From: Polynucleobacter necessarius
GTDB taxonomy: Bacteria > Pseudomonadota > Gammaproteobacteria > Burkholderiales > Burkholderiaceae
Assembly: GCF_900095175.1 (NCBI RefSeq)
Contig: NZ_LT606946.1
Location: forward strand, 908,058-972,057
Direction: 5' to 3'
Length of the DNA: 64,000 nt
Part shown: piece after piece, positions 5,362-34,036 of the stretch
How the letters are laid out: every line of letters begins with the position of its first letter
Position numbering within the stretch: position 1 is the stretch's first letter
Made by a program: the position numbers and the translations under genes
Notes under the pieces: model-generated
The model's database searches: none
Seen by the model: the letters and a program-made list of their open reading frames with translations, nothing else
Told to the model about the DNA's origin: nothing

Positions 5362-5431
5362 GTTGGACACCCAAGACTAAAACACTTATATAGTGGGATA
5401 CTCTAGGCTGCAATGGCAATACAATCAAAAA

Positions 5432-7196: not shown

Positions 7197-7220
7197 TCTG
7201 GATATGCTCATACCTAGATT

Positions 7221-7844: not shown

Positions 7845-7877
7845 GTAAATTGTGGTCCTCAATTAGTGTTGATGAAA

Positions 7878-9086
7878 TTACTTCTTCAGACCGCCAACGA
7901 GGTCATTCTTTAAATCAACCACATTCTCAAGACCAACTGCAATTCGAACAAGGCCATCAGTGATGCCGGCCGCCTTACGGGCTTCTGGACTAACGCGGCA
8001 ATGTGTTGTTGTTGCAGGGTGAGTAATTGTTGTACGAGTATCACCAAGGTTTGCAGTAATGGAGCAAAGCTTGGTTTGATTAATCAATTTAAATGCAGCC
8101 CTCTTTCCACCTTTAAGCGTGAAAGATAGAATGGCGCCACCCGCCTTTTGCTGGCGCTTAGCCAAAGCGTGCTGAGGGTGCGACTTCAGGCCTGGATGGT
8201 AAACGCGCTCTACTCCAGGCTGCTTTTCTAGCCACTGCGCAATCTCTAAAGCATTTTGACTCTGCTGCTTCATGCGCAATTTGAGGGTTTCCAAACCCTT
8301 CAAGAACACCCAAGCATTGAATGCTGAGAGTGTTGGTCCAGCAGTTCTTACATACGGAAATACTTTACCCATAATGAAATCATTGCTGCCCACAATCGCG
8401 CCACCAACCACCCTACCTTGGCCGTCCAAGTATTTCGTGGCTGAATGAATGACTACATCAGCGCCTAATGAGAGCGGTTTTTGCAATGCAGGCGTGCAGA
8501 AGCAGTTATCTACAGCAAAAAGTGCGTTCGCCTTCTTCGCTATCTTAGAAATTGCTTTAATGTCTGCAATCTCAGTCAAGGGATTAGAAGGGGTTTCTAA
8601 ATAAAACAGCTTAGTATTTTCTTGGACGGCATTCTGCCAAGCCTTAGTATCAGACAAATCCACATAAGTGGTTGTGATGTCAAAGCGTCCCAAAATATTG
8701 CTAAACAATTGGATGGTTGCACCAAATACGGAGCGCGAACAGACTACATGGTCACCCGCTTGCAGATGGGACATAGCCATTGTCAAAATAGCAGCCATTC
8801 CAGAAGATGTCGCAATACAGGCCTCGCCACCCTCCAAGGCAGCAAGACGATCCTGAAACATACTCACTGTCGGATTAGTGAATCGAGAATAAATAAATCC
8901 CTGGTCGGCATGGGCAAAACCATCAGCAGCCAACTCGGCGCTATCAAAACAAAAGCTAGAAGTGAGGAACATCGCCTCTGAATGCTCTTGGTATTCAGCG
9001 GTACGTCGAGTTCCAGCGCGAGCCGCCAGGGTTTCAAGCGCAAGCTTTGAGAAGTCAGGTTTTTTGCGGGTAGTTTTACTCTTCAT
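7878..9086 (-). CDS. metZ: O-succinylhomoserine sulfhydrylase MetZ
   Basis: 402 aa, full length. A Cys/Met-metabolism PLP enzyme: the PLP-binding Lys lies in SATKYLDGQGR near residue 218, with the upstream VDNCFCTPALQKPL motif. MetZ makes homocysteine directly from O-succinylhomoserine and sulfide in the cytosol. It follows purF, the usual arrangement in betaproteobacteria, and is the last gene of the trpF-to-metZ run. Cystathionine gamma-synthase is the main alternative; the purF linkage favours MetZ. Confidence 0.9.
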   Translation of the reverse strand: MKSKTTRKKPDFSKLALETLAARAGTRRTAEYQEHSEAMFLTSSFCFDSAELAADGFAHADQGFIYSRFTNPTVSMFQDRLAALEGGEACIATSSGMAAILTMAMSHLQAGDHVVCSRSVFGATIQLFSNILGRFDITTTYVDLSDTKAWQNAVQENTKLFYLETPSNPLTEIADIKAISKIAKKANALFAVDNCFCTPALQKPLSLGADVVIHSATKYLDGQGRVVGGAIVGSNDFIMGKVFPYVRTAGPTLSAFNAWVFLKGLETLKLRMKQQSQNALEIAQWLEKQPGVERVYHPGLKSHPQHALAKRQQKAGGAILSFTLKGGKRAAFKLINQTKLCSITANLGDTRTTITHPATTTHCRVSPEARKAAGITDGLVRIAVGLENVVDLKNDLVGGLKK

Positions 9087-16379: not shown

Positions 16380-17054
16380 TTAAGGTGATGTGCTTGCGTC
16401 TGCCGCTCGCACTGCCTCGATAAACTGCCTCATCAAGGCGTGATCTTTTACACCCTTGCTGATTTCTACGCCACTAGAGACGTCAACCGCGCAAGGATGA
16501 AGACGAGCAATAGCTTCGCCCACGTTGTGAACGTTCAACCCACCACTCAAAACGACCTGAGGCGCGTTTGCGCTTATCCATGCTTGTGGAATTCCTGACC
16601 AATCAAAAGGAACGCCCCCTCCTCCATAACCCTCAACGAGAGCATCGAGCAAAAAGGCATTTGCTTGCCTATATTGTAGGGAAAAATCATCAAAGGCGAA
16701 GCCTGCTCCAACGCGAGCCGCCTTCATCCAGGGTTGACCTGCCGCAAGGCGCTGGCATTGGGCCGGAGACTCATCCCCATGAAACTGCCATAAAGTGATC
16801 GAAGCGGCTGCCCGGATAGCCTCAAATTCAGCATCTGAGGCGTTAACGACCAAGCCCACGGCATCAACCCCAGCCGGAAGCCTGGAAATCAATGCAGCAG
16901 CAATATTAGGAGTAACCGCCCTGGGACTTGGCGGATAGAAAACAAAGCCAACCGCATCTACGCCAGCAGCTACCGCAGCATCCACATCTGAAGGTGTCAT
17001 AAGACCGCAGATTTTGACCCTAGTACGCCCGTGAGAGTTAGTAAGTAAGCCCAT
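16380..17054 (-). CDS. trpF: Phosphoribosylanthranilate isomerase
   Basis: 224 aa. N-terminal VKICGL with the catalytic Cys, the Asp in DAVGFVFYPPSPRAV, and the C-terminal SGGLNVHNVGEA and AVDVSSGVE phosphate site. It performs the Amadori rearrangement before indole-glycerol phosphate synthesis. It opens the trpFBA-accD-folC run. The ATG at 17054 places a few extra residues before the barrel. Confidence 0.96.
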   Translation of the reverse strand: MGLLTNSHGRTRVKICGLMTPSDVDAAVAAGVDAVGFVFYPPSPRAVTPNIAAALISRLPAGVDAVGLVVNASDAEFEAIRAAASITLWQFHGDESPAQCQRLAAGQPWMKAARVGAGFAFDDFSLQYRQANAFLLDALVEGYGGGGVPFDWSGIPQAWISANAPQVVLSGGLNVHNVGEAIARLHPCAVDVSSGVEISKGVKDHALMRQFIEAVRAADASTSP

Positions 17055-17147
17055 AGAATTGATGATACGGGGTTATGGGTTACTTGCAAGGCTTTGACCT
17101 GATGGGCATATGCTATTCAAAGATAGCCCCCTCGTTACCCAATACAA

Positions 17148-18071
17148 TTAATTACCTTTAGGTTTAGCCGTAACTGACGATTTGTCCATATCACCCAAAA
17201 CTAGCGGCAATCCGGTTGGACCCGATCCAAAAATAATAATTTTTGAGTTATTGGAAGTTGCAAGACTCTGAGTAGCCTCAACACCGCGCCAACGCAAATA
17301 GTTATCTGATAAGCCCGGGCGGACAATATCTTGGAATTTTCGTATACCCTCAGCCTCGATCTCTTTACGAAGAGCCTCTTGTTTGGCAGCCTGCAGGATG
17401 TGCTTATCGCCATCAGCCTTAGCGAGCTCTACCATCTTCCGCTCGATAGCCTCCTCAACCTCCCTAGGGAAGCTAATGCTGACTATCTCAACATCACTCA
17501 CGCGGATTAATTTGACGCTTTCCAAGCCCGGCGGGCTAATATTGTCAACCAAGATTCTGTCTGAGGTGATAGCAATTTCTCGGACAACTTTTTGAATCTC
17601 GGATGTAAATGCCTTATCAGATGCAAAGCTACCAATTCTTCCGCGGATAATTGAAATCACCTGAGGTTCAACGACCTTATTAAGATAATCAGGTCCGATA
17701 TATTTGTGCAGCATTGGCAAGGTACGCACATCAATCTCATACTGGTAAACAACCCTTACCTTTGACTTGAGCAAGTCAGAAGTCAAAACATCAAGCTCAA
17801 GAACCTGATTTTACAACCGAGCATCATACTGAGTGAAGGTATTCCAAGGGAAGACGAAATGTACACCTTCTTTGCAAACCTCTGACATATCAACCCCGCC
17901 CCATAGAGGCCTATAAATTACAGCCACCTTACCAGCGGGGACGGCGTTGACGATTTTTGGCCATAAAAGCAAAAGACTGTCGATGCCAATAAATACTGCC
18001 AGGGAAATTTGAATCAAATACTGATCAATCAGACGATCAATGGCACGATAAATTAATTTAATCAATTTCAT
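17148..18071 (-). pseudogene. SPFH/prohibitin-family membrane protein, interrupted by in-frame TAA
   Basis: About 307 codons. A single N-terminal membrane segment (LIQISLAVFIGIDSLLLLW, residues about 20-40) is followed by a band-7/SPFH domain: VPAGKVAVIYRPLWGG, VHFVFPWNTF, then RVVYQYEIDVRTLPML and the coiled-coil AKADGDKHILQAAKQEALRK. At 17813-17811 a TAA interrupts the frame (YDARL-stop-NQVLELDVLTSD), one change from CAA. SPFH proteins scaffold membrane microdomains and bind or protect membrane proteases and transporters. The ATG overlaps the exporter stop (TAATG), so it is the last gene of the parA-DUF697-exporter operon. Its role there is unknown. Confidence 0.78.
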
Positions 18072-19707
18072 TACTCACCTGCATCCTCGAACAATTTGCC
18101 ATCTCTAAAAGATAATACGTAATCAGCAGTATTAAAATAATAATCATCATGTGTGATTGCTATCACAGTCTTGCCCATCTGCTTTAACCTAGGCAGCAAC
18201 TGTTTATAAAAATGTTTTCTGAACTGAGGATCTTGATCTGCAGCCCACTCATCTAGGATGATGATATCCCTGTTCTCAAGCATGGCCACAAGAAGGGCAA
18301 TACGCTTCCTTTGACCCGTAGAGAGCTGGATATGAGAAAAAACCCCTCATTAATTGAAAACTTTTTCTCAATCTCAAGTAACTTTTGCCAAGGCAACATA
18401 TTATCTTCATCCAAATCAAATAAGCCGTACAGCTTTTGGAATAAATAGAAATCACTGAATACAACAGAAAAAGGTCTCGATATGAGCTTGATGCAGGCTG
18501 CTCCACCTCGACTCCGTTAACACAAATACTTCCTTGGCTGGGCTTATAGAGGCCCGTCAAGATACGCGTGAAGGTAGTTTTTCCAGAACCATTACTTCCT
18601 TTAATGAAGTATAAATTTCCCGCTTTTAATTCATAGCTGACGGGGCCCTAGAGCAAAACCAGAAGAATCCCTGCCCTTTGGGTGTTCATAAGTGACATCA
18701 TGTACAGATAAGGTTTCAAATTTATCAATTTGGATCACTTGGGTATTTTCCATGGATTGCTTAGCCGTTTTTGACAACTCATCCTGTAGCAATAACAGGG
18801 AATTTGCTGAAGCATTTGCCTCTGACAGGGCGGGAATGGTCTGGATAAGGCCTGACAACTGCCCGACTAGGAAGATACCGGCGGTTGATGCGGCTAAAAC
18901 TGAGTCCGCGAAACCGTCAACAAGTGCGGGGACAATGAATATTAAAATCCCAACAACCACAAACATCAGGGTTTGCAAATAATTAAAGAAATTTGTGATT
19001 CCAACGAGGGAGTAGGCTTTTAAATTACTTGAGAGTAGTGATTGCTCAACCATATCCGCTGTTATATCTCTGGCGCGCTTTGAGTGCATCTTGATTTCTT
19101 TGAAGCCATTTAAAAAATCGCCAAATAGATCAAAAACTTCACCGTCTTTTGCAAACGCATCACTTACGCAATCCTTGACTCCCAAGATAAATTTTGTAGA
19201 AACAAAAAATATAATTACAGCAGCCACAAAGGTAATGAAAAACGCAATCCATGAAATGGTGGCCATATAAATGGTCAGACAGGTTAATGTCGCAGCGGAT
19301 TGACACATCATCACCAAAATGGGGATAGCACCAGATACAACCTGAGTGTCCCTCCCGAGGGATTGCAAAATTTTAGCCTTACCTACCTGGTCAACAGTAT
19401 GTAAATCGGAGCGAAAATACTCACCCAATATACGTATTTTAAATTTATGTATTAAAAATTGGGCGCTTCTAATATTGTCTCGGTTAGCCTTACGCGTGAC
19501 GATTAAAAAAAATGCCAGGACAATTGAATATAAAAAGAATTGAAGAAAAACAGATTCGCCTTCTGCAGCTCTAGCCACAGACATATTAACTAAGGCAATC
19601 AAAGCTGTATTTGCAACCCCAACAAAGCAGGCAAGCCAAATTAGGCGCCTCAGATCACCCGAACCTTCAATCCTCAAAAACTGGACCACCTCAGATCTTG
19701 AGAACAT
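18071..19707 (-). pseudogene. Cyclic-peptide-type ABC exporter (SyrD/PvdE family), three frameshifts
   Basis: About 545 aa when repaired: a six-helix membrane domain then one ATPase domain. Walker A GSNGSGKTT, signature LSTGQRKR, Walker B IIILDEWAADQDPQFRK and H-loop AITHDD are the hallmark set of the SyrD/PvdE peptide-exporter family. Frame breaks lie at 18642-18645 (one extra base in a G run), 18468-18472 and 18337-18342 (one base missing in each A run, plus-strand bases). The start is uncertain: the ATG at 19707 fits family length; a GTG at 19734 or TTG at 19746 is possible. The likely job is export of the NRPS product made by the divergent genes. Confidence 0.85.
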
Positions 19708-19749
19708 AGAGCTAATGTTATTGTCAGTATTCACTTGTAAGCACAATCT

Positions 19750-20624
19750 TTAATCAATAAAACGACGGATGAAATTCTGCTCTTTGAACATTTTCCTGGC
19801 TTTTTCATAGGAGTCAGAAAAATTCATCCGCATGGTGGCAATCTCAAAATCGATGAGAGACCCTTTTTTCTCAAAGTGAGCAATAAAAACTGAACCAAGC
19901 GCATGGGTGCTGGCGTATGACAAAGCTGGCTGAACGGCTATATTTATCACTCTACCAACAACCGGTATCTTTTTAACCACATGTAAGCCGATGTAATGAG
20001 ATATTCCAGTGGTGACATTACCCGATATCAAACTTGAAATGATCGCACTGGCACTCTCTTTTCGGAATGGAACCTCATAAAGTTTGCATAATTCAAGAAT
20101 CATTTTTAGTTGAACTCCAGTAACTGCAGCTGCATCCAAGAAATGTACCGGCACAAGTCCAGCCAACATTGACCATTCAGCATGCTTTCGAACAATATCA
20201 TTTGCAGGAGCGTCTGGCATTTGCTCTGTAACGGCTATTGGTTTACCTGCACTAGATTTCTTTTTGGATTTTGAATTAAAGAAGAAATTTTTGTCATCGT
20301 GTTTTAGGTTGGCGGAATTAGACTGATTAAATATTTCTTCAGCACCATCACCTCCAACTTCTACATCTATTAACGTAGGGTAGCCCATAATGAAGTGAGC
20401 GGTAGTATCGTCATCTGAGACATGGGAGGAAAATATTGCTTCGGAGCTATCAGACACATCGAGTATGTTTGGTATTTTTTTCCTTGATCCGCACTTTTCG
20501 CAGCATTATTAACATGCGAATCCTTGGCAAATCTAGACTCGGGGATGGAATGAGCCGACCCATCTTCGGACCTAATCTCTTCGAGAGGATTTAGCTTAAT
20601 AGTAGAACGCCTTCGTCCATTCAT
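19750..20624 (-). pseudogene. YcjF/DUF697-like membrane protein A, frameshifted
   Basis: About 291 aa when repaired. The N-terminal half is hydrophilic and low in complexity, ending in a Lys/Ser-rich patch (NSKSKKKSSAGK). The C-terminal half has hydrophobic helices resembling DUF697/YcjF domains (AEWSMLAGLVPVHFLDAAAV, then GVQLKMILELCKLY). Its hydrophobic region aligns with the protein at 21479-21985, so the two are paralogues. The frame breaks at a T7 run, 20475-20481 on the plus strand; one more A on the coding strand restores it. The ATG overlaps the parA stop (ATGA), implying translational coupling. Function unknown. Confidence 0.68.
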
Positions 20625-21391
20625 TTTGAATCCAACTTTAATTTTTTGAGAAGTTCAATTGTTAGCGCACGATAATCTTCTGCGGCACTTGAGGATGGCT
20701 TATAAGTCATAATGCCCTGATTAAATGAAGGCGCCTCTGCCAGCGATACATTCTCGCGAACAATAGAAGAAAGCACCTTATCCCCAAAGCTTTGTTTTAG
20801 TAATTCGATAACATCTTTTGCATGCCTAGTTCTAAGATCAACACGTGAAGGCAAATAGCCCAAAATATCAATAGAGGTATTGAGCACTTCCCTGACTTCG
20901 TTAAGAGTGTTCACCAACTGACTAACGCCAATCAAACTCATTACATGTGTTGTGACAGGAACCAACAATTCATCTGCAGCGGCCAATGCATTCAAGGTCA
21001 ACAAGCCAAGAGTAGGCGGCGTATCAATGAGAATGATGTCCCATCCGCCTAAATCAACCTTAGATAGGCGTCTTTTTAGCAGGGACTCTACCGCTATTTG
21101 ACCAGATAAAGACTTTTCAATCTGGGACAACCTTTTGGAACCTGCCATTACATCTACTCCCGGCATGCGAGTGGTGCAAATTAAGCTCTCAAAGGGTTCA
21201 TCATCCACCAAAAACTCAAAGGTGCCTTTTGCGTCAGCCTTAATACCAACCCACTGAGTAGCATTAGCCTGGGGGTCCAAGTCCAGAACCAGTGTTCTTA
21301 AACCATGCTCAGCAAGAGCACAGGCCAAATTAACTACCGTTGTAGTTTTGGCGCAGCCCCCTTTTTGATTGGCCACCGCAATTACCGTCAT
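20621..21391 (-). CDS. ParA-family ATPase, orphan
   Basis: 256 aa from the ATG at 21391 (MTVIAVANQKGGCAKTT); an upstream extension to 21424 lacks family sequence. The deviant Walker A KGGCAKTT, Walker A' VLDLDPQANATQW, and Walker B-like IILIDTPPTLG identify a Soj/ParA-type ATPase. These dimerise on ATP and use nucleoid or membrane surfaces to position cargo. No parB is adjacent. It sits between two DUF697-like paralogues and is coupled to the downstream one. Chromosome partition is therefore unlikely; positioning of a membrane or enzyme assembly is a guess from context. Confidence 0.88.
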   Translation of the reverse strand: MTVIAVANQKGGCAKTTTVVNLACALAEHGLRTLVLDLDPQANATQWVGIKADAKGTFEFLVDDEPFESLICTTRMPGVDVMAGSKRLSQIEKSLSGQIAVESLLKRRLSKVDLGGWDIILIDTPPTLGLLTLNALAAADELLVPVTTHVMSLIGVSQLVNTLNEVREVLNTSIDILGYLPSRVDLRTRHAKDVIELLKQSFGDKVLSSIVRENVSLAEAPSFNQGIMTYKPSSSAAEDYRALTIELLKKLKLDSK

Positions 21392-21429
21392 ATTAGAGAT
21401 TTCGCCCAGTTTATGTAAACGCAAAAATA

Positions 21430-21460
21430 AATAAGCCCACTAATAATAAGTGGGCTTATT
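21430..21460 (-). terminator. Rho-independent terminator after DUF697-like protein B
   Basis: Perfect 12-base arms AATAAGCCCACT (21430-21441) and AGTGGGCTTATT (21449-21460) enclose a seven-base loop. On the minus strand the stem is followed by TATTTTT. It separates the 21479-21985 gene from the parA operon, so parA likely has its own promoter or depends on read-through. Confidence 0.82.
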
Positions 21461-21478
21461 GCAATGCTTATGTTTAGC

Positions 21479-21985
21479 TTACTTTTTCACAGCCTTTTTG
21501 AATTCTTCTTTTAAGTCAGCCTTAACAGCTTCAGCATCAAAGCTGTCCGCAGTACCGCCGCCTTCGAAATGCTTAACCATCACTTTTCCAATTGCGTAAG
21601 TTGCCGCAACTGAGAATGCAGACATGGAAACAAAACCAAATAGCGGGCCATAGCCTGGGAAAAGTTTTGCTGTCGATCCAACAACAACACCGGCGCCGAT
21701 AGCTGGAGCGAGCGTACCAGTCAATACCGTAATCAATGAGCGGAGCTTCTCCTTGCTAAAAGTAGAGTCATAAACCTTTGCAATATCATTTACCAGCTTA
21801 GCCTGAATACCACCAATAACCAAAACATCAATATTGGAGACCGGGATCAACGCAGCGCCTACACTCCATTTGGCAGCATTGGCGATTAACTTGCTAACCT
21901 GATCTAATTTATCGGATGCCTCGGGGCTTAATTCCTTCACTTCAGCTTCAGAAACATCTGAAACACTGGCTGTGTTACTTGTCAT
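21479..21985 (-). CDS. YcjF/DUF697-like membrane protein B
   Basis: 168 aa. An acidic N-terminus (residues 1-30) precedes helices AAKWSVGAALIPVSNIDVLV, Gly/Ala-rich segments (APAIGAGVVVGS) and a charged C-terminal tail ending EEFKKAVKK. The block AKWS-AALIPV-ID-GGIQAK-AKVYD-FSKEK matches that of protein A at 19750-20624. Such domains occur in YcjF and in GTPase-linked membrane proteins. No GTPase is present here; the nearest NTPase is ParA. It is transcribed separately and ends in a clear terminator. Confidence 0.75.
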   Translation of the reverse strand: MTSNTASVSDVSEAEVKELSPEASDKLDQVSKLIANAAKWSVGAALIPVSNIDVLVIGGIQAKLVNDIAKVYDSTFSKEKLRSLITVLTGTLAPAIGAGVVVGSTAKLFPGYGPLFGFVSMSAFSVAATYAIGKVMVKHFEGGGTADSFDAEAVKADLKEEFKKAVKK

Positions 21986-22234
21986 AATTTTTCCTAGAAA
22001 AAGGCATCAGTTAATAACTCGATAATATTAGCCCAAAGGTTAACATATAGGAGTGAATTTCCCGCTTAGACTTTCTACACACATTGGCCACCCCCCTTAA
22101 TTTGTCACTAATCTGCCTATTCTAGTCAGCACTAAATCGGTGCATAAGGCCATGATTGGGGGCATTTCAAGGCACATCATATTAGCCATAGAGCGAGCAG
22201 AATCCTCTGTTCGAATAGTAAAAAAGTTACAAAA
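21986..22234. other. Divergent intergenic region between the two arms of the NRPS island
   Basis: About 250 bases separate the minus-strand DUF697-like gene from mbtH on the plus strand. It must hold both promoters. I see AT-rich stretches but no convincing -35/-10 pair, no strong palindrome and no Fur-like box by eye. Confidence 0.4.
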
Positions 22235-22473
22235 ATGGATGCAATAGAAAAAAGCTTTTTAATAATTCCGGTAACGGTCTCACTATAGACGGAGATCATT
22301 TCAAGATCTTGATCAATGAGGAAAACCAGCATTCGCTGTGGCCTGCTCAAAAGATCGCTCCATTAGGGTGGACAGAGACCGGTTTTACTGGATCAAAAGC
22401 AGAATGCGTGGAATTTGTAGATGAAAGCTGGCAGGATATGCGGCCTAAAACACTCGCGATGTCCTCGAAATAG
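22235..22473 (+). pseudogene. MbtH-like NRPS accessory protein, single-base frameshift
   Basis: About 80 aa when repaired. From the ATG at 22235 the reading MDAIEKSFF loses frame in a T5 run (22256-22260); one added T gives NNSGNGLTIDGDHFKILINE and then the MbtH signature. That signature is ENQHSLWPAQ, PLGWTETGF and ESWQDMRPKTL, ending at the TAG 22471-22473. MbtH proteins bind adenylation domains and are often needed for their solubility and activity. It lies 73 bases ahead of the NRPS gene, the standard place. Confidence 0.87.
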
Positions 22474-22546
22474 TCAGCGATAGCCCTATCGCAACTATTT
22501 TAAGAAGATTGGTTTATTTCTTTAATTTAATCAATCTTATATTCAA

Positions 22547-25500
22547 ATGAGTATGGAATCATCCCGCTTGAGCTATTTGGTAGGGGCATCATCTTTGGAT
22601 GTCTACCCGCTTACGGGTGCTCAAAATAATGTCTGGTATCACCAGCAACTTGACCTCGAATCATCCGTCTACCATATTGGGTCAGCCATTACGTTTTCTG
22701 GCCACCTTGAAATTCAGCACCTTGAAGCGGCGTGGAAAAAAGTTATCGCGCATGTCGACACACTAAGATCTAGCATCATCCTGCAGGATGGCACCCCTTT
22801 TCAAAAAATCCATGCAGAAGAGCTTCAATAGAAATACTATTTAGCGACATTCGGTCTGATGCCGACCCCGCCTTAAAGGCAAAAGAACTTATAAGGAATG
22901 CTTTAACTAAACCAATCAACTATTTTGAATCGCCTTGTTTTAGGCTGGGGGTTATTCAGACTTCAGATTCGAAATGGATTCATTACTTTATCCCTCATCA
23001 TCTTTTTATTGATGGGTCGGCACGAGCGAACATTCTGCGCCTTGTTGCAAAAGCCTATAGCAATATTCATGAAGTTCTCGAGCAATCCGTATCACTTCCC
23101 GAGATAGTCAAGCTTGATCTAGATTACTTGTGTGGCGAGCAATATCAGATAAATGCTCAATATTGGTCCAGCAATTTAGCCTCAATAGAGACTGCAACTA
23201 GCATTTCAACGGTTGAACTAGGCTCCGCCTCCCTGACCCTTTATTCATCTATACGTACTACCATTTCCCGTCAAAAGTTTGAGCAACTTACCAAGCTAAG
23301 CAAAGAAATTTCTGGGAGTCGAGCATCGATATTTGCCACCGCCCTATTTATTTACTTAGTACGTCTATATAACCAGCGGGATCTTTGCATTGGCTTGCCA
23401 ACAGCCGGAAGAGCTAAAGGTCAGGAGGCTTTCTCTGGAATGACGACAAATATTTTGCCTCTCCATATCAATCTTAATTTTGGATTAACTGTTCGCGATT
23501 GCATTAAATTAGTTTCCGAGCAAATCCGTGAAGCAATCAAGCACGGGCACTACCCCTTAAGTCAGATATCAAAAAATCGCCGCAAACATGGACTGGGAGA
23601 TCCCTTTGCTGCCGTTCTCAATTTTCAAAGCTTTAATTTTGATCTTCAATTTACAGGCCTAGAGGTTGATTTAAATCTCCTTAATTCAGGTCCTATTTCT
23701 GATGTGGCGCTACAAGTTCTTGATCGCCAAGATGGTTGTGAGGTAGAGCTCATCTTAGATTACAACCCCTCACGCTATAGCGGCAGCCAAATTCAGTCTT
23801 ACCTGAATAATTTGCATTACGTAATTACTGAGCTACCAAATTATCTAGATCTCCCTATCGCTCTCACTCCATTGCTTGAACCAAGAGAGTTGCAATCGGT
23901 TTTAGAGATTAGTGGTCACTCAATAGTTAATACTCAAAATCTCAACCTCACCCTACCCGAACTCTTTGCTGCTCAAGTAGCGAGAACACCAGATGCTACA
24001 GCCTTGGTCTATGAAGACCAGAGCCTGACCTATGCCCAATTAGATGCCAAGGCCAATCAATTAACCCGTTATCTGATTGCACAAGGCATTGGGCCAGAGC
24101 AAATCGTTGCCTTGCTGTTAGATCGCTCACCACAGATGATCATTGCCTTATTGGCAATCTTAAAAGCTGGTGCTGCATCTACCACTTGATCCTGACTATC
24201 CTGCCCAACGTCTCTCGTTCATGCTGGGTGATAGTGGTGCACAACAAGTTATCACCAATAGCTCTACCTTAGGGCATTGTGAGTTAGCAGATTTTGCTCA
24301 GCTGCAGATCATTGATTTAGAGAACCTAGCGCAGCAGACCCAGATTGAGGGCTATAGTCCTCAAGCAATTACTGATAGTGAACGTGTCAGACCGCTACTG
24401 CCTGAGCACTTAGCCTATGTGATCTATACCTTGGGTAGTACGGGGACACCGAAGGGGGTGGGTATTGCGCATGCGGGCACTATTAATCTTGCAAGCGCTC
24501 AAGTCTCCACTTTTGCAATTGACTCAGTCAGTAAAGTGCTTCAATTTGCTTCACAAGCATTTGATGCCAGCATATCCGAGATTATTACCACCTTTAGCGT
24601 AGGGGCTACGCTAGTATTACCGCCAAGTAGCGCTGGTCTATCAAAAGCAATAGAGCTTGCCAACACTATTGCAAGGCATGAGATTACTCATGCAACCATT
24701 CCACCTGCGTTACTTGCAGCTCTTGAAGCCAAAGAAGTGGTGGCGCTTGAAACCCTCATCGTCGCCGGCGAAGCCTGCCCCCCCCTTCCTTGGTGGAGTG
24801 CTTTGGTGATGGTCGCCGCATGATCAATGCATACGGCCCTACTGAAACGACAGTATGCGCAATGATGAGTGAGCCTTTAAATCCACAGTTAGATGGACTC
24901 ACCTCACAATTAGTCCCCATTGGTACGCCAATTTCCAATACCCAAATCTACCTCCTAGACTCCACCCTAGAGCCCGTTCCCCCTGGCGTAGTGGGCGAAC
25001 TCTATATTGCAGGAGCAGGTTTAGCTAGAGGCTACTTAGGTCGTCCTGGCTTAACTGCAGAACGCTTTATTGCTTGCCCTTTTGGACAGCCTGGTAGCCG
25101 GATGTATCGCAGTGGTGACTTAGCTAGAAGACGCTCTGACGGTGCCTTAGAGTTCTTAGGTCGTGCTGACCAACAGGTCAAGATCCGTGGCTTTAGGATT
25201 GAGTTAGGCGAAATCGAAGCAGCACTCTTACAAGCCTGCCCAGAATTAGCGCAAGCAAGTGTGCTTGCTCAGATGGTGGCTGGTGAACAAAAGCTCGTGG
25301 CTTATTTAGTAACCCAAGCCAATACGCCAGCACCTAGTGCTAACCAGCTGCGTGCTGCCTTAGGTGACTCACTACCAGAGTACATGGTGCCGAGTGCCTT
25401 TGTATATCTAGCTACCCTACCACTGACCCCCAATGGCAAACTCGATCGTCGCGCTCTGCCTGAGCCAGAGTTTGTTACCGACACTGCTTACCGTGCACCA

Positions 25501-26512
25501 AGTAGTGCTAATGAACAACTGTTATGTGCACTCTTTAGCGAACTACTCGGTGTGGCTACTGTCGGTGTAGACGATAGCTTCTTTGCACTGGGGGGACACT
25601 CCTTATTGGCCATGCGCTTAATTGCACGAGTGCGGCAACAGATTGGTATTACGCTACCACTACGAACTCTATTTGAATTTGCTACACCAGCAGGCTTAGC
25701 GTTGCAGTTGGCTGATAAGTCTATAAAGACATACAACCCTCTAGTTGCCCTCAGAAAAACCGGGAAATATCCACCTATTTTCTGCCTGCACGGAGGTGGT
25801 GGAATCGGTACCGTTTACTCTAACCTCAGCAACGCTCTTGGGGAAGACTACCCTGTCTATGGAATTCAGGCGAAAGGCCTAGAAGATGGAGATGAATTAC
25901 ACACCTCCATTAACGAAATGGCCGATGAATACATCAAGGCAATTCGCACTGTTCAAGCTAGCGGCCCATATCATTTGCTGGGATGGTCGCTTGGAGGGAC
26001 ATTGGCTCATGAAATGACCTGCAAACTTGAAGCAATGGGAGAAGAAGTTTCACTGCTGGCACTTTTAGATACCAAGGCCGTATATGTAAATCACGACCAA
26101 CTAGAGGGGCTAACCATGAAACAGTCCATTATTAAGCCAGCAAAGGATTATGGCGTTGAACTAGATGGGTCGGAGAATCTGCACCTAGAATTTATTCGAG
26201 AATTGTTGGTTGGGCAGGACTTAATCCCCCGAGGGCACACCCTTAGATTGGGTCGAAAGAGCATTTAAACAACTGGCCGCAACTCCAGACCTCACCAGAA
26301 ATCATCAAACTAGGGTGTGTAACGCCCCAATCATCTTCTTCAATGCAGAACAAGAGGATAGAACAGATAATCTGGAAAGCTATTTATGGAGTAAGCATAC
26401 TAATTCACCTGTTTATACTTATCCAATCGATTCCCTGCATAACACAATGATGAAGCAATCAGCTGTAACCAATATTGCGCGTCACATTAAACAATACCTA
26501 AGTCAACGCTAG
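22547..26512 (+). pseudogene. Single-module NRPS, C-A-T-TE, with four frameshifts
   Basis: About 1,320 aa when repaired, close to EntF in size and layout. Condensation: YPLTGAQNNVWYHQQL start and active site HHLFIDG. Adenylation: [54 protein letters not shown] and [10 protein letters not shown]. Carrier: [14 protein letters not shown] with the pantetheine Ser. Thioesterase: [13 protein letters not shown], nucleophile GWSLGG, late His in DSLHNTMM. My ten-residue specificity code is DASTIAAVCK, like Phe/Tyr codes. Frame breaks: 22827 (A lost), about 24176 (two bases lost), 24778-24785 (C8 run), 26226-26230 (one C extra). All core motifs survive, arguing against old decay. The donor for the C domain is not encoded here. 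Confidence 0.9.
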
Positions 26513-26529
26513 TATCTAAATTTATATAT

Positions 26530-27254
26530 ATGAATATTATTAATAAAACGCAGGTAGATGAATTTTATGAGGTTAGATTTTTGCAATTGCCAAACTATCT
26601 CTCTGAAGATGAAGTTGACTTGCTATCAAAACAAGTTGAGGCCTTAGAGCAAAGTGAATTTCCAGGGCATGTTCTGGAGGAGCACGGGAAAGGATACAGA
26701 GCTTTGCACGGCTGCCATCTATACAATAAGTTTTTTAATAAACTCATCAAATCCCCAATGCTTCTTCGGCCAGCCAAAGCATTATTAAACGATGATGTTT
26801 ATGTTCATCAACTTAAGATCAATTTAAAGAAACCATTTAATGGGGAGTTATGGCCATGGCACCAGGACTATATTTACTGGCGTGAAAAGATGGTGTTCCG
26901 AACGACTCAATTTTAAGCGTCATGGTATTTTTAGATGACGTTACTGAATTTAATGGGCCTCTTTTCCTAGTACCTAAGTCACATAAGCTGGGATGTATTA
27001 ACCAAGAGACTGAATCACCAACCGGAGGTTGGAATCAGGACGTAAGCGCTGAACTTACTTATCAGGTTGAAACGGACTTAGTTGAAAAGTTGATTCGGGA
27101 GCATGGGGTGGTATCTACTAAGGGCCCCAAAGGGACAGCCCCTTGGTTTCACGGGAACATCATTCACGCCTCACCTTCAAATATCTCCCCATTTGCAAGA
27201 CGCGTGGCGATTATCACCTACAACGGCATCTCCAATAAGCCCCTGGTGGGCTAA
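26530..27254 (+). pseudogene. Phytanoyl-CoA dioxygenase-family Fe(II)/2OG oxygenase, frameshifted
   Basis: About 242 aa when repaired. The iron-binding HxD is in WPWHQDYIYW and the distal His and 2OG-binding Arg are in HASPSNISPFARR, the PhyH pattern. The frame breaks at 26889, where one G is missing; restoring it gives REKDGVPNDSILSVMVFLDD. PhyH enzymes beside NRPS genes usually hydroxylate a free or carrier-bound amino acid or the finished product. It starts 18 bases after the NRPS stop, so it is probably co-transcribed as a tailoring enzyme. Confidence 0.86.
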
Positions 27255-27362
27255 AGGGAGCTTAGGCCGGCTTTTTTGTATGCCAGAGATACGTCGCCGC
27301 TTCGAAAAGAAACCGTAGAAATTACATAAACTAATTTCACAAATAAAAGCGAAGGATATGAA

Positions 27363-27551
27363 ATGAATTTTATTGGACTGTTGCTGCTAGTTGGGGCAAT
27401 CTACCTAGGCTACTCTTTATTAAAGAAAAAGGGTGTAGCGAAAGAAGGTCCCGTCAACCTAGATAAGAATCCTAAAAAGCTATACCGGGTTGTTATTGAA
27501 ATAATATTATTATTTACTATGGCCTGGCTGTTTATAAGATTTATATATTAA
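27363..27551 (+). CDS. Small two-helix membrane protein
   Basis: 62 aa. Two hydrophobic helices (IGLLLLVGAIYLGYSLL and IEIILLFTMAWLFIRFI) flank a charged loop. An AAGGA ribosome-binding site sits just upstream. I do not recognise the family. Its place between the oxygenase and the lipoprotein suggests it belongs to the NRPS operon, perhaps as an export or membrane-assembly factor, but that is only positional. Confidence 0.6.
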   Translation: MNFIGLLLLVGAIYLGYSLLKKKGVAKEGPVNLDKNPKKLYRVVIEIILLFTMAWLFIRFIY

Positions 27552-27601
27552 TCAATTTTTAATAAAAGATTATCCTCAAATCGTTTTTATTGGAACGAAA
27601 A

Positions 27602-28830
27602 ATGAACGCTCGATTTATTAAGTTAATTTCTATCAACTGTTTTTTTGATGCTTACCGGTTGCAGCACTGTTGCTCCGGACTTTAGCGACATGTCGCAATC
27701 CTATCAAACGGTCTTAGAGAAATACCAAAATAATAATTTGCTGCTAAATGTCATTCGCTCATCCAAGAATATGCCACTGAGCTTTCTTGAGATTCCATCG
27801 GTTGTGGGCACAGGGAATATCAGCGAAACGGCTGGACTTGGGGTATTTCTTTATGGGGCTGGCGGCCTAATGACGGGAATGGCAACGGCTTCAAATTATT
27901 ACAACCCCTACGCATCTATGAGTCTTGGCAGATCATTCAATTTCACACAGTCGTCGCTTGAAAACGCTCAGTTTCAAAAAGGCTTTATTAGCAATATCTC
28001 CATAGAGACTATGACCGCCTTCACAAAGGATCACATCTCAAAAGAGCTTTTGTACACAATGGTAATAGATCGTTTTGAGGTTACGAGCCCCAAGGGCGAG
28101 AAAATCATCGCCTACAACAATCCCTCATCGGCTACATATAAGGAATTTCAAGAGCAACTTCGCGGCCTGATTGGTGGTGGCTTAACCACTGAGATGATTT
28201 TAATGAATATGCCAATAGGCCCCATGCTGACCAACAAGGAACTCGCAAATACCATGTTAGTTAACTATGTAGCAAATAAAGATAAGTCGAGGATTGTATT
28301 GGCCGAATTAAAAACGAATGGTGTTAAGGCATATCAATTTCAGGAGCCGGTCAATGTAGCTCGATTTTGTTTTGATACTACCCAGTATAAAAATAGTAAT
28401 AGAAAAATTCGGAGAAACAATGCTTTGCGGTGCCGCAACCACCCCGGCGGCATTAAGTGCAAATTTTCAATCCAACATAAGCAAACCTACCGTCAAAATT
28501 CAATTACGTTCAACCAGGGATATATTTGATTTTTTCGGACAAATAGCCGCCAAACAATTGCAAGAAAATCCTGAATACATCTATGTTCGCGGAAGAAAGC
28601 AAAAATTGAATGGTGATTTTGAAAGCTATGGAGAATACCCAATTTTACTTATAGATAAGAACAACAAAGAAAAGGCCATTGCAACCATTGCCTATGACGG
28701 CAATCTTTACTCCATTCCCGATAAACCAGATACCTATAGCGCCTATTCATTCAATCTTTTATCTCAATTCTTTAATTTGACGAAGGTGCCAGGCTTCGTC
28801 CCGCCCTCTCCCTTCGTTCTAATTAAATAG
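27602..28830 (+). pseudogene. Uncharacterised lipoprotein, two frameshifts
   Basis: About 409 aa when repaired. From the ATG at 27602 the leader MNARFIKLISINCF runs into a T7 run (27640-27646); removing one T joins it to LMLTGC, a lipobox with Cys near residue 21. The mature part has a Gly-rich segment (GVFLYGAGGLMTG) and ends PGFVPPSPFVLIK. A second break at the A5 run 28403-28407 is repaired by removing one A (KFGETMLCGAATTP). I do not recognise a domain. Given its place before the PPTase gene it may be an envelope part of the island. Confidence 0.65.
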
Positions 28831-28849
28831 AGGTTGGTTTATTGAAATA

Positions 28850-29601
28850 ATGGATCAGAATTGGAGCGAGCTGACTGGTTATGACTTAGAGCTTAGTAAG
28901 GATGACTGCCTTTGCCTGATGATGAACATCAGGCAAATTACCTTGACTGATCTAGATTTGATGCAATCCCAATTAGACGAGATGGACGAATTGAAGGCGA
29001 ACAAGATTGCTAACGAACAAAATCGTAGACAGTTTATTGCCTCAAGACTGCTTCAAAAGGTCTACTTAAAAAGTATTTTTTCTAGTAAGCCAGATATTGG
29101 ATTGGGGGTCAATGGTAAGCCATTTTTAAAAAATGGTTCAGGGGAATTTAACATCACACACTCAGGTGATTATCTGGTAATCGCATTCGCGTATCATCCG
29201 ATTGGGGTGGATCTTGAGAAGATTGGGGACTTTCCAGAAAGGAATTTTATTAAAGATAATTTCTTCCACCCTGGCGAAACTACTGAGCTGAATCAATTGC
29301 AAGATGAAGATTTTAATACGGCTTTTTTACTTGCTGGACAAGAAAAGAAGCCTTGCTGAAGGCAATTGGTCGTGGATTAGAGATGGAAACTAAAAGCTTT
29401 CGAGTTAGCTCCGCGCCAAATCTTCCCCACCTAATTGAAGGTCCAGATGCCAAAAATTGCGACTGGAAATTCATTAACCTACCGGAAATTGATCCAGAAT
29501 ATATTGGCAGTATTTGTCACAATAGACCCAGAATTGAAGTGAGATTTAGGTATATTCGACCAAACATCAAATGGATAGATGCTTTAGCAAAAAAATATTA
29601 A
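28850..29601 (+). pseudogene. Sfp-type 4'-phosphopantetheinyl transferase, frameshifted
   Basis: About 250 aa when repaired. The PPTase motifs are clear: GKPFLKNG, FNITHSGDYLVIAF, IGVDLEKI with the Mg-binding Asp and Glu, and WTRKEALLKAIGRGLEM. The last motif is split by a missing T at 29335, where LLAGQEKK should read LLAWTRKE. Sfp-type enzymes attach phosphopantetheine to carrier-domain Ser, so this would activate the NRPS carrier. Its stop overlaps the end of the convergent gene at 29598. Confidence 0.86.
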
Positions 29602-30431
29602 TTTGGGTAACGAAGATAGATGTTGTTATAGCTATCAGCAAGCCGTATGGTTGAGTTGCCCAATTTAGCCACAGACTCTATTGCCAATAACTTCTCCAAG
29701 CGGCGTGCTCTATAAGACCAACCCTTAGGCAATTCCATGACAGAGCCAAGGTCAGCCAAAGATTTCAGCTTTAATGAATGAAGAAACATGTCAGTGTATG
29801 CGGTCATCACATAGATATTTCCATCCGGATCAATCAGCTCGTAAATTTGAGAGCCTGCATTCCAAATAAAATGCGAATCTTCGGCGGTGTTATAGGGTAA
29901 ATAATTGCCACCCGTTAAATATTGTCTGATTATTTTCGGGTTTTTGAAGATATCTAACAGAGTAAACTTACTGATACCTGATTGATAAAATTTCAAGAGC
30001 CCAAAATTCTCGTACTTTTTATTAATATTTACACAGGATAAGTCCATAGTAGGATGGTATACACCAGATAAAACAGCCCTACTTAACTTTAAACCTGTAG
30101 TTTCCAATTGCGCCTCAACTGATACAGGCGTCAATTTGAAATAATCGCTTGGCGAGCAATCACCAAAACCCTGAGTCGAGAAAGTATTGACCTAGACGTA
30201 GTAGAGATGAATACTAAAAACATTAATCATGCAGAATGTATTTTCATCATGCAATATAGAAAGGTTTTGAGATGATGTCTTCTGATATGATGGAGCGTTT
30301 ACGATGCTGACGTCCTGAATTGCAGCGGCATCCTTAGCTTGAGAACCAAACTCAATTTCTAATGAAGTTGCAAAAGCATTAATGCCAAATATTAAAAATA
30401 AAATAGCAGTAAATCTTAGGGCAGTTTTCAT
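29598..30431 (-). pseudogene. Uncharacterised exported protein, interrupted by in-frame TAG
   Basis: About 277 codons. The N-terminus is a good Sec signal (LRFTAILFLIFGINAFA). A TAG at 30194-30192 interrupts the frame after FSIHLYYV; the same frame resumes VNTFSTQGFGDCSPSDYF and runs to the end (YNNIYLRYPN). CAG or TGG are one transition away from TAG. The second part has Cys in FGDCSPSD and MDLSCVN that could form a disulfide. No family recognised. It converges on the PPTase gene with overlapping ends, suggesting it marks the island's right border. Confidence 0.6.
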
Positions 30432-30655
30432 ATTTAAGTCACCAGCATTAAATTAATTAAAGGGATGCTACCACCACAAAATTGAGATGCAATAAAGGAT
30501 AAGGTCAATAGCATGATACATTACAAAAATATAAAATATTTCCAAATCATCAGGCTGAATTCCTACTTTGCTGGGGCATTAATCAACTGAACAAATAAGA
30601 AAATAATTTTTAATGGCGATACAGAATTATCTATAGCATCAAAATCGGACTAAAT

Positions 30656-31486
30656 TTATTTTCGAATCAAATAATTAGGTAACCAAGAATTAGCTAACCA
30701 TGGCTTAGGGATCTGAAACTCATCTGGATAGGCAATTTGAGCCAAATAGAGCCCAGCCGGTGAAAAGGTTGGTGCCGCAATGCTACGGTCTTTTGCAGCA
30801 AGGACCTCAGCCATCCATCCCGCTTTTTGCTTGCCAACACCGATCTGGATAAAGCTTCCCACCAAATTACGCACCATGTGATGCAAGAAAGCATTCCCTT
30901 TGATCTTGAAATAGAGCCAAGGCTCATCAGAGAAAATATCAATGGAATACATTGTCTTTACTGGCGTCTTACTTTGACACTTCGAGGATCGAAATGAGGT
31001 GAGATCATGTTCACCAATTAAACATTGGGCAGCATCTTTCATGGCCTCCACATCAAACCAGCGATCCGCCGGCAACATGACGTAACCCGCGCGATCTGCT
31101 GCCATAGGAGAACGGCATGGGCCAGCATGTAAAGCGTAAATATAGGTGCGCTCATGGGCAGAATGTCGGGCGCTAAACTCTTCAGGCACCACTTGAGCCC
31201 AATTAACCACAATCGACTCTGGCAAGAAAGTATTGACCCCTCTAACCCAAGACCAGTTCTCTCGCTCAACCTCAACATCAAAGTGCACTACCTGGCCTAA
31301 AGCATGGACACCCGTATCTGTTCTGCCCGCTGTAATGACACGTATAGGGGTGGATTTCAATCCATCCGTCCCAACAAAGGAAGAAATAGCCTTTTCTAAC
31401 TCATCTTGAATCGTATTCTGATTTACTTGGGACTGCCATCCTGAATAAGGGCTGCCGTCATATTGAAGGCCTAAGGCGATGCGCAT
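30656..31486 (-). CDS. truA: tRNA pseudouridine synthase A
   Basis: 276 aa. N-terminal [14 protein letters not shown], catalytic Asp in [19 protein letters not shown] near residue 57, and C-terminal [15 protein letters not shown]. TruA modifies U38-U40 of tRNA anticodon stems. It ends the asd-fimV-truA group, an order shared with many proteobacteria. Confidence 0.97.
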
Positions 31487-31494
31487 AGTGACGT

Positions 31495-32879
31495 TTAAGA
31501 ATCTCTGTGCGATAACTCGGTCAGCAGACCTTGGGCCTCAACCGTAATTGCAGGATCAATTGAACTGCCAATGTGGACAATTTCTTGAAGAGATTTTTTG
31601 GCTGCGGCGAAATCTTCAATCGTGATGTAGGCCCGAGCCAAATTTAACTTCACACGAAGAGCATCAGCCAGCGGATTAATCTCAGCAACTGGAGGCTGAG
31701 TCGGTTTTTTAACAGGCGTCAAGTCGAGATCAATTCCAGCGAATAATGCCTTAGCACGATCCGGCATTGCAGTATTCGAAGAATGATGCTGTTGAGGAGT
31801 AGCATTTTCTTTGGGAATGCTCTCTGAAAAATTTCGGGCTTCAGAGCGACGAGCATTTTTTGCTAGCAACCAGAGCAATAAACCAGTAAGCCCCATCAAT
31901 GCTAATGCGAAGATTGCTGGTGCAAAACCACCCATGCCAAAAGAATCATCATTTTTTGCAGGCTCTGATGTCTTGCCTTTAGCTTGATCAAGAAGGCATT
32001 GCAAATCAGCAATATTCTTTTCAAGTTCAGCAACGCGAATTCGTGTTTGTTCAAGCGCTTTTTCTTGAGCTACAAGTCTTCCGTATAGCGGCGCTCTTCA
32101 GAGCTGCCTTCAGCACTCGATCCAATTTTAAGTCTATCTTTAGCTGGTGCATCGGGACCGTTCTTTGGAGTGCTTGAGCCTTGCGCCCCACCTCTTGCTT
32201 CTCGTTCAGCTAACCACTGAGCATTCGACTCAGCCACAAACTGCTGAGCCTCTGCCGGACTAATTGAACGTAACAAGGCCTGATTCGGCTGATTAAGCTC
32301 AGCACCAGCCTCAAGACGGTTAATGCTGCCACTAGCAAATGCATCAGAATTGGCTTTAAATAAAGCCATCATGGTTTGATCAAGATTTGCGCCCTGCATT
32401 TGGGGCGCTAATTGCGCAGCAATTTCAGAAAGGGTTTGGCCTTGTCTCACTAGAATTTTTTGAGCGTCGCCAAGGAGCAATGTGTAGGCTTTGGTGATGC
32501 TTCCCGCAGACCAATTTAAGGTGACCATAACATCTAAGAATGGATCCTCTGTCATTGGCACAGATTCAACTGTCTCAAGCAGAATCATCAACTGCTCTTG
32601 TTGGTTGCGATAAATCATCACCTGAGGATTGAGATCAAGGACCTTTTGAGATATCCCCAATCGGTCGTACGCAGTCTCACTAGCAATACTGACATTTAAG
32701 CTGGAAAGTGCGGATTGCTCATCTGCACCAACTCGAATCGGAAACTCTACCTTGAGTGGTTCTCCGGGCCTAGAAAGGAGCTTTGGAGAACCAAGGGAAA
32801 TGGCTGCTGCTGCACAGGACCAACTTAGCCAAACTAAGCAAAGCGCTCTTGCAAACTGAATCTGGCTAAATCTGAACAT
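31495..32879 (-). pseudogene. fimV: FimV/TspA-like polar protein, frameshifted
   Basis: About 461 aa when repaired, from the ATG at 32879 ([14 protein letters not shown]), which overlaps the asd stop (TAATG). It has a signal sequence, the FimV N-terminal domain (GSPKLLSRPGEPLKVEFP), and a LysM-like patch (LVRQGQTLSEIAAQLAP). Then come a coiled coil (RIRVAELEKNIADLQ), a membrane helix (APAIFALALMGLTGLLLWLL) and a C-terminal helical repeat. The frame breaks at 32079-32080; one more A on the coding strand reads YTERLVAQEKALEQ. FimV organises the cell pole and type IV pili. The gene order asd-fimV-truA supports the call. Confidence 0.82.
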
Positions 32880-34036
32880 TAGCGCTCTAACAAGATGCGG
32901 AGCATACGACGCAATGGCTCTGCAGCGCCCCATAAGAGTTGATCGCCGACGGTAAATGCACCTAGGTATTCAGGGCCCATAGCCATCTTATGGAGACGGC
33001 CGATTGGCACCGTTAGAGTTCCGCTAATCGCGGCTGGAGACAATTCACGCTCAGTAGTCTCGCGATCATTTGGAATGGCCTTAACCCACTGGTTATCGTT
33101 AGCCAAAATGGTTTCGATCTCTTTTAGCGGAATGTCTTTTTTGAGCTTGACTGTTAAACCTTGTGAATGGCAGCGCATCGCGCCAACACGAACACACAAG
33201 CCATCAATTGGAATACTTCCAGGGGTTCTAAATGGAGGGCGACCTAATATCTTGTTAAACTCAGCACCGCCCTTCCACTCTTCCTTAGTCTGACCATTCT
33301 CAACAGGAACATCAATCCAAGGAATCAAGCTACCTGCTAGAGGTGTATTGCGGAAGTTTTTCTTTGGAAAATCAGGTGAGCGCAAAGTCTCAGTAATCTT
33401 ACGATCAATATCCAAGATCCAAGAGGATGGATCTGCCAATTCTATTGCTACGCTATCACGTAAAGCACCCATCTGCAGAAGCAACTCGCGCATATTTTGT
33501 GCGCCAGCACCAGAAGCCGCTTGATAAGTCATGGCACTGATCCACTCAACCATGTCGGCCTTAACTAAGCCACCCATCGCCATCATCATTAAGCTAACTG
33601 TACAGTTACTGCCAATCCAGCTCTTTCCACCTGCCGCTAATGCTTTATCAATCACAGGTCGATTTACTGGATCCAAAATTAATACAGCATCATCTTTCAT
33701 GCGCAATGCACTTGCAGCATCAATCCAATGACCTTGCCAACCAGCAGCACGTAGCTGAGGGAAAATCTCATTGGTGTAGTCGCCACCCTGACAAGTCAAA
33801 ATAATGTCGCAACGCGAGAGCGCCTTGATGTCATTCGCGTCCAGCAGAGTATTTTCACTCTTGGTGACCTTTTGGCCATTTAAGAGCGGCACTTCACCAC
33901 CAGTTTGACTGGTACTAAAAAATACGGGCTCAATAAGATCAAAATCCTTCTCAGCGAGCATTCTCTCCATAAGAACGCTACCAACCATACCGCGCCAGCC
34001 GACTAAGCCTACTAATGGTGTTTTTGTATTTGCCAT
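32879..34036 (-). CDS. asd: Aspartate-semialdehyde dehydrogenase
   Basis: 385 aa from the ATG at 34036 ([20 protein letters not shown]), not the upstream in-frame codons. NADP-binding GWRGMVGS, catalytic Cys in [16 protein letters not shown] near residue 134, and the late His in [14 protein letters not shown]. It makes aspartate semialdehyde for lysine, threonine, methionine and cell-wall diaminopimelate. It follows leuB by about 50 bases. Confidence 0.97.

Follow-up and report, generated by a model that had tools for sequence, protein, structure and literature searches.

At a nonribosomal peptide synthetase (NRPS)/polyketide synthase (PKS) cluster of OXR-137, a cyclic-peptide exporter gene is followed by a prohibitin gene (PMC12016528), and proximity labelling has placed a paraslipin close to the exporter of the glycopeptide balhimycin (PMC11960670). 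The partner proteins of ParA-type ATPases, in turn, use a charged N-terminus (PMC10241942). This paper describes a gene island of Polynucleobacter necessarius in which features of these systems are found together, located at positions 17148-30431 of a 64,000-nucleotide stretch (hereafter the window; positions 908058-972057 of a single-contig 1.9 Mb genome, NZ_LT606946.1). Overall, the island is probably best explained as a decayed peptide cluster of two modules, one for synthesis and one forming a self-contained export platform with ParA positioning. Its parA, DUF697 and SPFH genes, which an initial annotation of this DNA had listed without comment, are its novel and most interesting part.

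The island shares with OXR-137 a cyclic-peptide exporter gene that adjoins a SPFH/prohibitin gene beside an assembly line, an arrangement for which the authors mention scaffolding, whereas that report concerns a passing remark on one genome, and the part of the paper dealing with the cluster mentions no DUF697, ParA, lipoprotein or lanthipeptide version (PMC12016528). Likewise, the balhimycin exporter Tba is a nonribosomal peptide exporter physically near an SPFH protein, but in an actinomycete (PMC11960670). The succession of parA and a basic-headed candidate partner gene, adjoining putative cargo genes, corresponds to ParA/MinD positioning systems, although the cargoes named in the excerpted text on those systems are the chromosome, divisome, flagella, chemotaxis clusters, carboxysomes and other bacterial microcompartments, and a conjugative element, with no peptide exporter among them (PMC10241942). 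In the open-licence PMC literature, neither the combination of lanthipeptide, ParA, ABC transporter and SPFH nor that of Polynucleobacter and lanthipeptide was found, whereas DUF697 occurs together with biosynthetic gene cluster in one paper and Polynucleobacter with nonribosomal peptide in four.

Gene content and disruption of the island

Most island genes could be compared with intact homologues in the congener G185, which are located on stretches L183 (NRPS start, MbtH, DUF697, ParA, fusion protein, ABC exporter and SPFH) and L113 (the end of the NRPS, PhyH, a 72-aa protein, lipoprotein, phosphopantetheinyl transferase and secreted protein). The minus strand of the island encodes an SPFH/Band_7 protein (17148-18071), disrupted by one in-frame stop and 86% identical to the intact 308-aa G185 protein, with PF01145 matching both pieces, the second below the gathering score; a TIGR01194-like (cyclic-peptide-type) ATP-binding cassette (ABC) exporter (18071-19746) with two frame changes, whose pieces at 18071-18289, 18276-18560 and 18631-19746 lie in three frames, include an ABC transmembrane region and match the 554-aa G185 exporter; a basic-headed segment containing STIKLNPL fused to DUF697 (19750-20624; PF05128), the proposed ParA partner, which has one frame change and matches the 298-aa G185 fusion in two frames; an open ParA-type ATPase (20621-21424; AAA_31/CbiA, 75% identical to that of G185); and a second, open DUF697 protein of 168 aa (21479-21985; PF05128, 85% identical to G185). 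At the far end, the same strand carries a secreted-type protein gene (29598-30437) with one in-frame stop, 58% identical to a 287-aa G185 protein. The plus strand encodes an MbtH-like protein (22261-22473) with an unclear start codon and 72% identity over residues 33-101 of the G185 MbtH (PF03621), while the 54-aa window open reading frame (ORF) by itself matched no NCBIfam model; a putative NRPS remnant (22547-26512) with four frame changes, recognised from Pfam matches on its pieces, their reading frames and the motif HHLFIDG; a PhyH-type dioxygenase (26524-27320) with one frame change and one in-frame stop, PF05721 in both pieces and a 268-aa G185 homologue; an open 62-aa membrane-protein-like ORF (27363-27551), 40% identical to the 72-aa G185 protein; a lipoprotein (27630-28827) with one frame change, 79% and 77% identical to a 416-aa G185 protein in two frames; and a 4'-phosphopantetheinyl transferase (PPTase; 28850-29601) with one frame change, matching PF22624 (N-domain) and, as nearest NCBIfam model, HetI, and aligned in two frames with the 237-aa G185 PPTase. 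The NRPS comprises condensation (C, about 22598-23892; PF00668), adenylation (A, about 23965-25440; PF00501), thiolation (T, about 25519-25701; PF00550) and thioesterase (TE, about 25774-26500; PF00975) domains.

The gene types named by the initial annotation are thus all present according to Pfam, NCBIfam and the G185 homologues; the second DUF697 protein, the [K/S]TIxxNPL segment and the secreted-type protein come in addition to its list. It had left unmentioned that most of these genes are not open. Breaks, called by alignment to the intact G185 homologues and from the frames of ORF pieces, amount to about 13 over some 12.7 kb of coding sequence and affect 8 of the 12 island genes, so that its claim of a complete set of genes, apart from a donor, for making and exporting one small molecule was not supported. 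In the NRPS, two frame changes in the C and TE parts were located by the G185 alignment, and two in the A domain by ORF frames and Pfam.

The initial annotation had compared the layout of the NRPS to that of EntF, with a donor for the C domain missing, and had made its interpretation depend on the catalytic His of this domain, which is present: the motif HHxxxDG is retained as HHLFIDG (within 22846-24042). Closest kinship to EntF was not supported. The first C domain of G185 (C1), which is 62-67% identical to that of the window and was used as the query instead of the window's split domain, scored higher against the starter C domain of RzmA (7c1h, 130 bits) than against EntF (117.9 bits) and Txo2 (109.2 bits). 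The best window piece reached 342.7 bits with the EntF equivalog model (cut-off 2400), pieces of a split gene being scored here, and no dihydroxybenzoate genes were detected among the island pieces scanned with Pfam, a scan not aimed at them specifically. Starter C domains accept acyl-CoA or acyl-acyl carrier protein (ACP), and the RzmA cluster is likewise without ACP and acyl ligase genes of its own (PMC7804268); if the C domain is of the starter type, a dedicated donor gene is therefore not needed, and primary metabolism probably supplied the donor as acyl-CoA or acyl-ACP. The window differs from the RzmA system in that its putative remnant has one module only, and its acyl donor is putative.

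A compact single module as the native design is likewise not supported by the homologues. Besides C1 on contig C35 and a T-TE piece on contig C2, G185 carries on contig C6 a T domain and two condensation-family domains with a match to TIGR01720 (epimerisation-type; 120 bits, cut-off 74.2) between them, a piece that we read as T-E-C. The G185 NRPS is at least bimodular if these pieces form one line, and this count is a minimum because the adenylation domains are missing from the assembly, which together with the assumed joining of the pieces weakens the comparison. A contig-end overlap test among the pieces found no overlap, and identical adenylation domains could not be shown. Given these traces of a longer NRPS in G185, the single C-A-T-TE module of the window is probably a remnant left after loss of internal modules. 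The synthesis module, consisting of MbtH, NRPS, PhyH oxygenase and PPTase, would then have made an N-acylated peptide, probably of at least two residues. A specificity code of the A domain was tentatively read by eye from motif anchors; a literature search for such signatures gave no match, and no claim on the substrate is made. The PhyH gene also follows an NRPS TE region in G114 (L117; 53% identical). CmlA-type diiron hydroxylases (CmlA_N) adjoin NRPS genes in G114 (L159:3095-4693) and in G316, from another family of the order (L188:15385-17001).

The state of the island bears on two other explanations. One is that the breaks are assembly errors and that the organism has an intact, working cluster. 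The flanks were used as a control: of 41 G044 ORFs of at least 100 aa, 33 (10,129 aa) match the window and 8 without a match were dropped, and 3 breaks were found in about 32 kb (2 of the 33 matched ORFs split, plus fimV). Relative to G044, the three frame-split flank genes lie at about 5393-6081, 31495-32933 and 47069-48267 of the window, and one of them is fimV (FimV/HubP polar landmark family, FimV_N); these splits may be real mutations or assembly errors. One flank frame change, like one of the breaks in PhyH, lies within a run of A, and because the flank rate is not zero, some of the island breaks may be assembly errors as well, a point that counts against the interpretation of the island as decayed. 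However, the disruption rate of the island is about tenfold that of the flanks, which are on the same contig of the single-contig genome, and three breaks involve no frame change but an in-frame stop, one each in SPFH, PhyH and the secreted protein, which makes assembly errors throughout unlikely. The other explanation, that of the initial annotation, is a functional, compact EntF-like pathway whose product is an N-acyl or oligomerised amino acid. The complete C-A-T-TE order, the retained HHxxxDG motif, the GWSLGG motif of the TE domain and the finding that EntF is one of the C domains of known structure closest to the G185 homologue are in its favour, but with two-thirds of the genes broken, the higher score of the starter C domain and the further NRPS pieces of G185, we consider such a pathway highly improbable. 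The island looks like a fossil rather than a working minimal pathway, and its export machinery is probably dead in the window strain.

In the window, the island occupies the space between trpF (16380-17054, minus strand) and truA (30656-31486, minus strand), both intact and 98% and 94% identical, respectively, to their counterparts in G044, where they lie about 53 bp apart. TrpF and TruA positions were compared by hand, and in none of the 37 nearest congeners, i.e., those with the best TrpF matches, is the island found at this site; the spacing is 24-55 bp in 34 of them and about 1.5 kb in three (G108, G011 and G004). The gap is also short in carriers of related gene blocks (68 bp in G185, 47 bp in G005), the blocks being located elsewhere. 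The G+C content of the island is 42.1%, versus 45.8% in the flanks, and no exact direct repeats of 12-40 bases were found between 16981-17400 and 30301-30700. The simplest reading is that the island was gained once the lineage had separated from that of its nearest relative, G044, and it would represent a horizontally acquired, since pseudogenised copy of a Polynucleobacter peptide cluster with modules for synthesis and export. The truA-trpF gap of G011 (L166) holds a 1.5-kb insert encoding an M23 peptidase and a bactofilin (Pfam), and gaps of about 1.5 kb also occur in G108, G004, G095 and G037. Past the end of the G185 block, L113:5030-13446 contains a phage-type integrase (7017-8213, Pfam) and genes resembling a mobile element.

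Export block and its biosynthetic partners in Polynucleobacter

The distribution of the block was mapped by tblastn of its genes on fetched stretches and from ORF lists. At E <= 1e-30, the block SPFH gene was detected in 11 of 186 congeners, a count that includes the window. The genes parA, ABC exporter and SPFH stand in a row, with the secreted-protein and lipoprotein genes nearby, in G005 (L148), G160 (L150), G055 (L162), G029 (L151) and G114 (L159), and parts of the block were found on short contigs in G175 (L149, L190) and G177 (L184). The G185 block is divided between L183 and L113, and co-location of the island genes in homologues, as assumed initially, is seen in this genome on contigs C35 and C2. 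Depending on the genome, the exporter gene follows parA directly or comes after the partner and DUF697 genes, which lie between the two in G005, G160, G029, G185 and the window. DUF697 genes are located past the lipoprotein gene in G114 and G055; the G114 fusion gene is located there too and does not adjoin parA, and no partner gene was seen on the G055 contig. The proposed SyrD/PvdE-type peptide exporter is supported by the intact homologues, since those of G185 (299.6 bits) and G005 (296.5 bits) pass the TIGR01194 cut-off of 286.2 bits, while the 371-aa piece of the window scores 70.8 bits because the gene is split.

The block combines with different biosynthetic genes: it adjoins MbtH and NRPS genes in G029, G114, G185 and the window, and the lanthipeptide synthetase gene LanM in G005, G160 and G055. 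When the nine strong SPFH carriers were sorted by condensation domains or LanM over the cut-off, NRPS alone was found in the window, G185, G029 and G114, LanM alone in G005, G160 and G175, both in G055, and neither in G177, whose copy is on a 4-kb contig and has an ABC exporter 96% identical to that of the LanM-type G005. LanM scores next to the block (cut-off 304 bits) are 786.5-786.9 in G160 (L150), 778.5 in G005 and 618.1 in G055; the window genome has no LanM match. LanM over the cut-off occurs in 4 of 186 congeners (G005, G055, G160 and G175), all four of which carry the block, and eight further congeners have LanM matches of 16-19 bits. Moreover, in a tree of ABC and SPFH sequences the copies of G055 (LanM) and G114 (NRPS) are sisters with a support of 1.000; this grouping is direct evidence that biosynthetic partners have been exchanged.

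With LanM beside the export block, the loci of G005, G160 and G055 resemble class II lanthipeptide clusters, and two of them contain putative precursor genes: LanA-like ORFs picked by eye beside LanM number four in L148 (G005), with a shared leader [ML]IEL[DE]E[VI], and one without this leader in L162 (G055), while none was picked by eye in L150. The ORF at L148:11262-11399 is just upstream of the lipoprotein gene, and one LanA-like ORF checked against Pfam gave no match. LanT exporters usually have a C39 peptidase, whereas the exporter beside LanM in G005 is a TIGR01194-type ABC protein without this domain. An AurF-like protein (below the Pfam cut-off) is encoded next to LanM in G005 (L148:2701-3735), with a similar-looking ORF in G160, and may point to an unusual lanthipeptide oxidation. 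No PPTase gene was found in the stretches L148, L149, L150 and L162, which carries little weight because it was not found in the NRPS-side stretches L151 and L159 either. The lipoprotein family is present in 43 of 186 congeners, and this protein may have other roles since its family is broader than the block; many of its relatives (L152-L157, L160, L161, L163 and L167) occur without other block genes in the fetched stretch. Structure models of the lipoprotein (mean pLDDT 70.9) and the secreted protein (mean pLDDT 70.7) gave no match in the PDB at E 0.001 or better.

All six ParA copies compared have the Walker A motif KGGxxKT in the form KGGCAKTTT, and four of the five candidate partners compared have a basic head with [K/S]TIxxNPLDxI. 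The parA and DUF697 genes might alternatively be leftovers of the partition system of an integrated plasmid, unrelated to peptide export. The best NCBIfam names for ParA are indeed those of plasmid partition families (RepA, 116.4 bits; ParA_partition, 111.5 bits), neither of which reaches its cut-off. On the other hand, parA, ABC exporter and SPFH genes occur together in 7 genomes including the window; in 5 of these the partner and DUF697 separate parA from the exporter, and the grouping persists although ABC identity drops to about 40%. Moreover, DUF697 accompanies SPFH even where parA is absent, and no replication gene was noticed in the island, for which no targeted search was made. Plasmid leftovers are therefore regarded as distinctly improbable, if slightly less so than the compact pathway discussed above.

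SPFH and DUF697 genes in other Pseudomonadota and the proposed export platform

SPFH and DUF697 genes are repeatedly found as a pair in Pseudomonadota, in many cases next to genes for NRPS, PKS or C39-type exporters. In a sample of the order, the block SPFH was found in 3 other genomes of 399 at E <= 1e-30, and all three loci have DUF697 and ABC-exporter relatives in the fetched stretch, two together with PKS matches and the third with weaker NRPS matches. In a sample of the phylum, 17 of 398 genomes match a broader SPFH profile, among them those of the window and G316. The remaining 15 supplied 16 loci for inspection, several on short contigs; DUF697 is present in 13 of these loci, an ABC exporter over 150 bits in 5, and NRPS or PKS over 150 bits in 6. 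In L226, L228 and L229, the ABC exporter instead carries a C39 peptidase domain (PF03412), a feature of ribosomal-peptide exporters. For comparison, 80 NRPS loci chosen regardless of SPFH contained no DUF697 and no SPFH matches. On plasmids, for which 6 of 19 records with an SPFH match were examined, SPFH, DUF697 and ABC genes occur together in Skermanella, Tistrella, Azospirillum (two) and Rhodobacteraceae, and in a Caballeronia plasmid stretch SPFH and NRPS only were found. Relatives of the G185 ABC exporter were not found in phage records. In Tistrella mobilis pTM3 (L194), the SPFH, ABC and DUF697 genes are divergent to NRPS genes; this megaplasmid carries the didemnin cluster, to which these NRPS genes may belong.

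Based on these gene associations, we propose that parA, the basic-headed partner, DUF697, the cyclic-peptide-type ABC exporter, SPFH, the secreted protein and the lipoprotein would constitute a self-contained export module that is paired with an NRPS or a class II lanthipeptide synthetase. SPFH oligomers and DUF697 would assemble into a membrane platform that surrounds the ABC exporter. ParA would bind its partner, in some copies a fusion with DUF697, at the basic head, thereby spacing or segregating export sites; the secreted protein and the lipoprotein would act in the periplasm and the outer membrane. Polynucleobacter may thus have a new class of ParA cargo, a peptide-export platform positioned by its own ParA-partner pair and pluggable into a lanthipeptide or nonribosomal pathway, and the SPFH-DUF697 core may be a general accessory of peptide exporters in Pseudomonadota; we put forward this wider proposal tentatively, as a possibility that is somewhat less probable than its converse.

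Several observations weigh against the proposed platform. The evidence is one of gene association, from which the mechanism is inferred. The parA gene was found only in the Polynucleobacter version and in none of the 16 phylum loci; in 3 of these loci no DUF697 was found, and in 10 neither NRPS nor PKS matched at more than 150 bits, although C39 ABC exporters are present in three of the ten; moreover, the 80-locus control is mostly from other phyla and is not taxon-matched. Within the genus, the weaker SPFH matches of G049 and G153 adjoin two ABC genes, and neither DUF697 nor parA was matched within the fetched 20 kb (the G049 stretch also contains PKS genes), G151 has a LanM-like match below the cut-off (225 bits) and no match to the SPFH block, and the [K/S]TIxxNPL motif of G029 is internal rather than N-terminal.

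For the strain studied here, the cluster looks broken, and searches for the product are better directed at strains with intact copies. If the proposal is correct, the occurrence of SPFH next to DUF697 would provide a genome-mining marker for peptide clusters in Pseudomonadota and would suggest a role for DUF697. Finally, a ParA system dedicated to a peptide exporter would add spatial control to natural-product export, and the export module would be one that has been coupled in evolution to either ribosomal or nonribosomal pathways.

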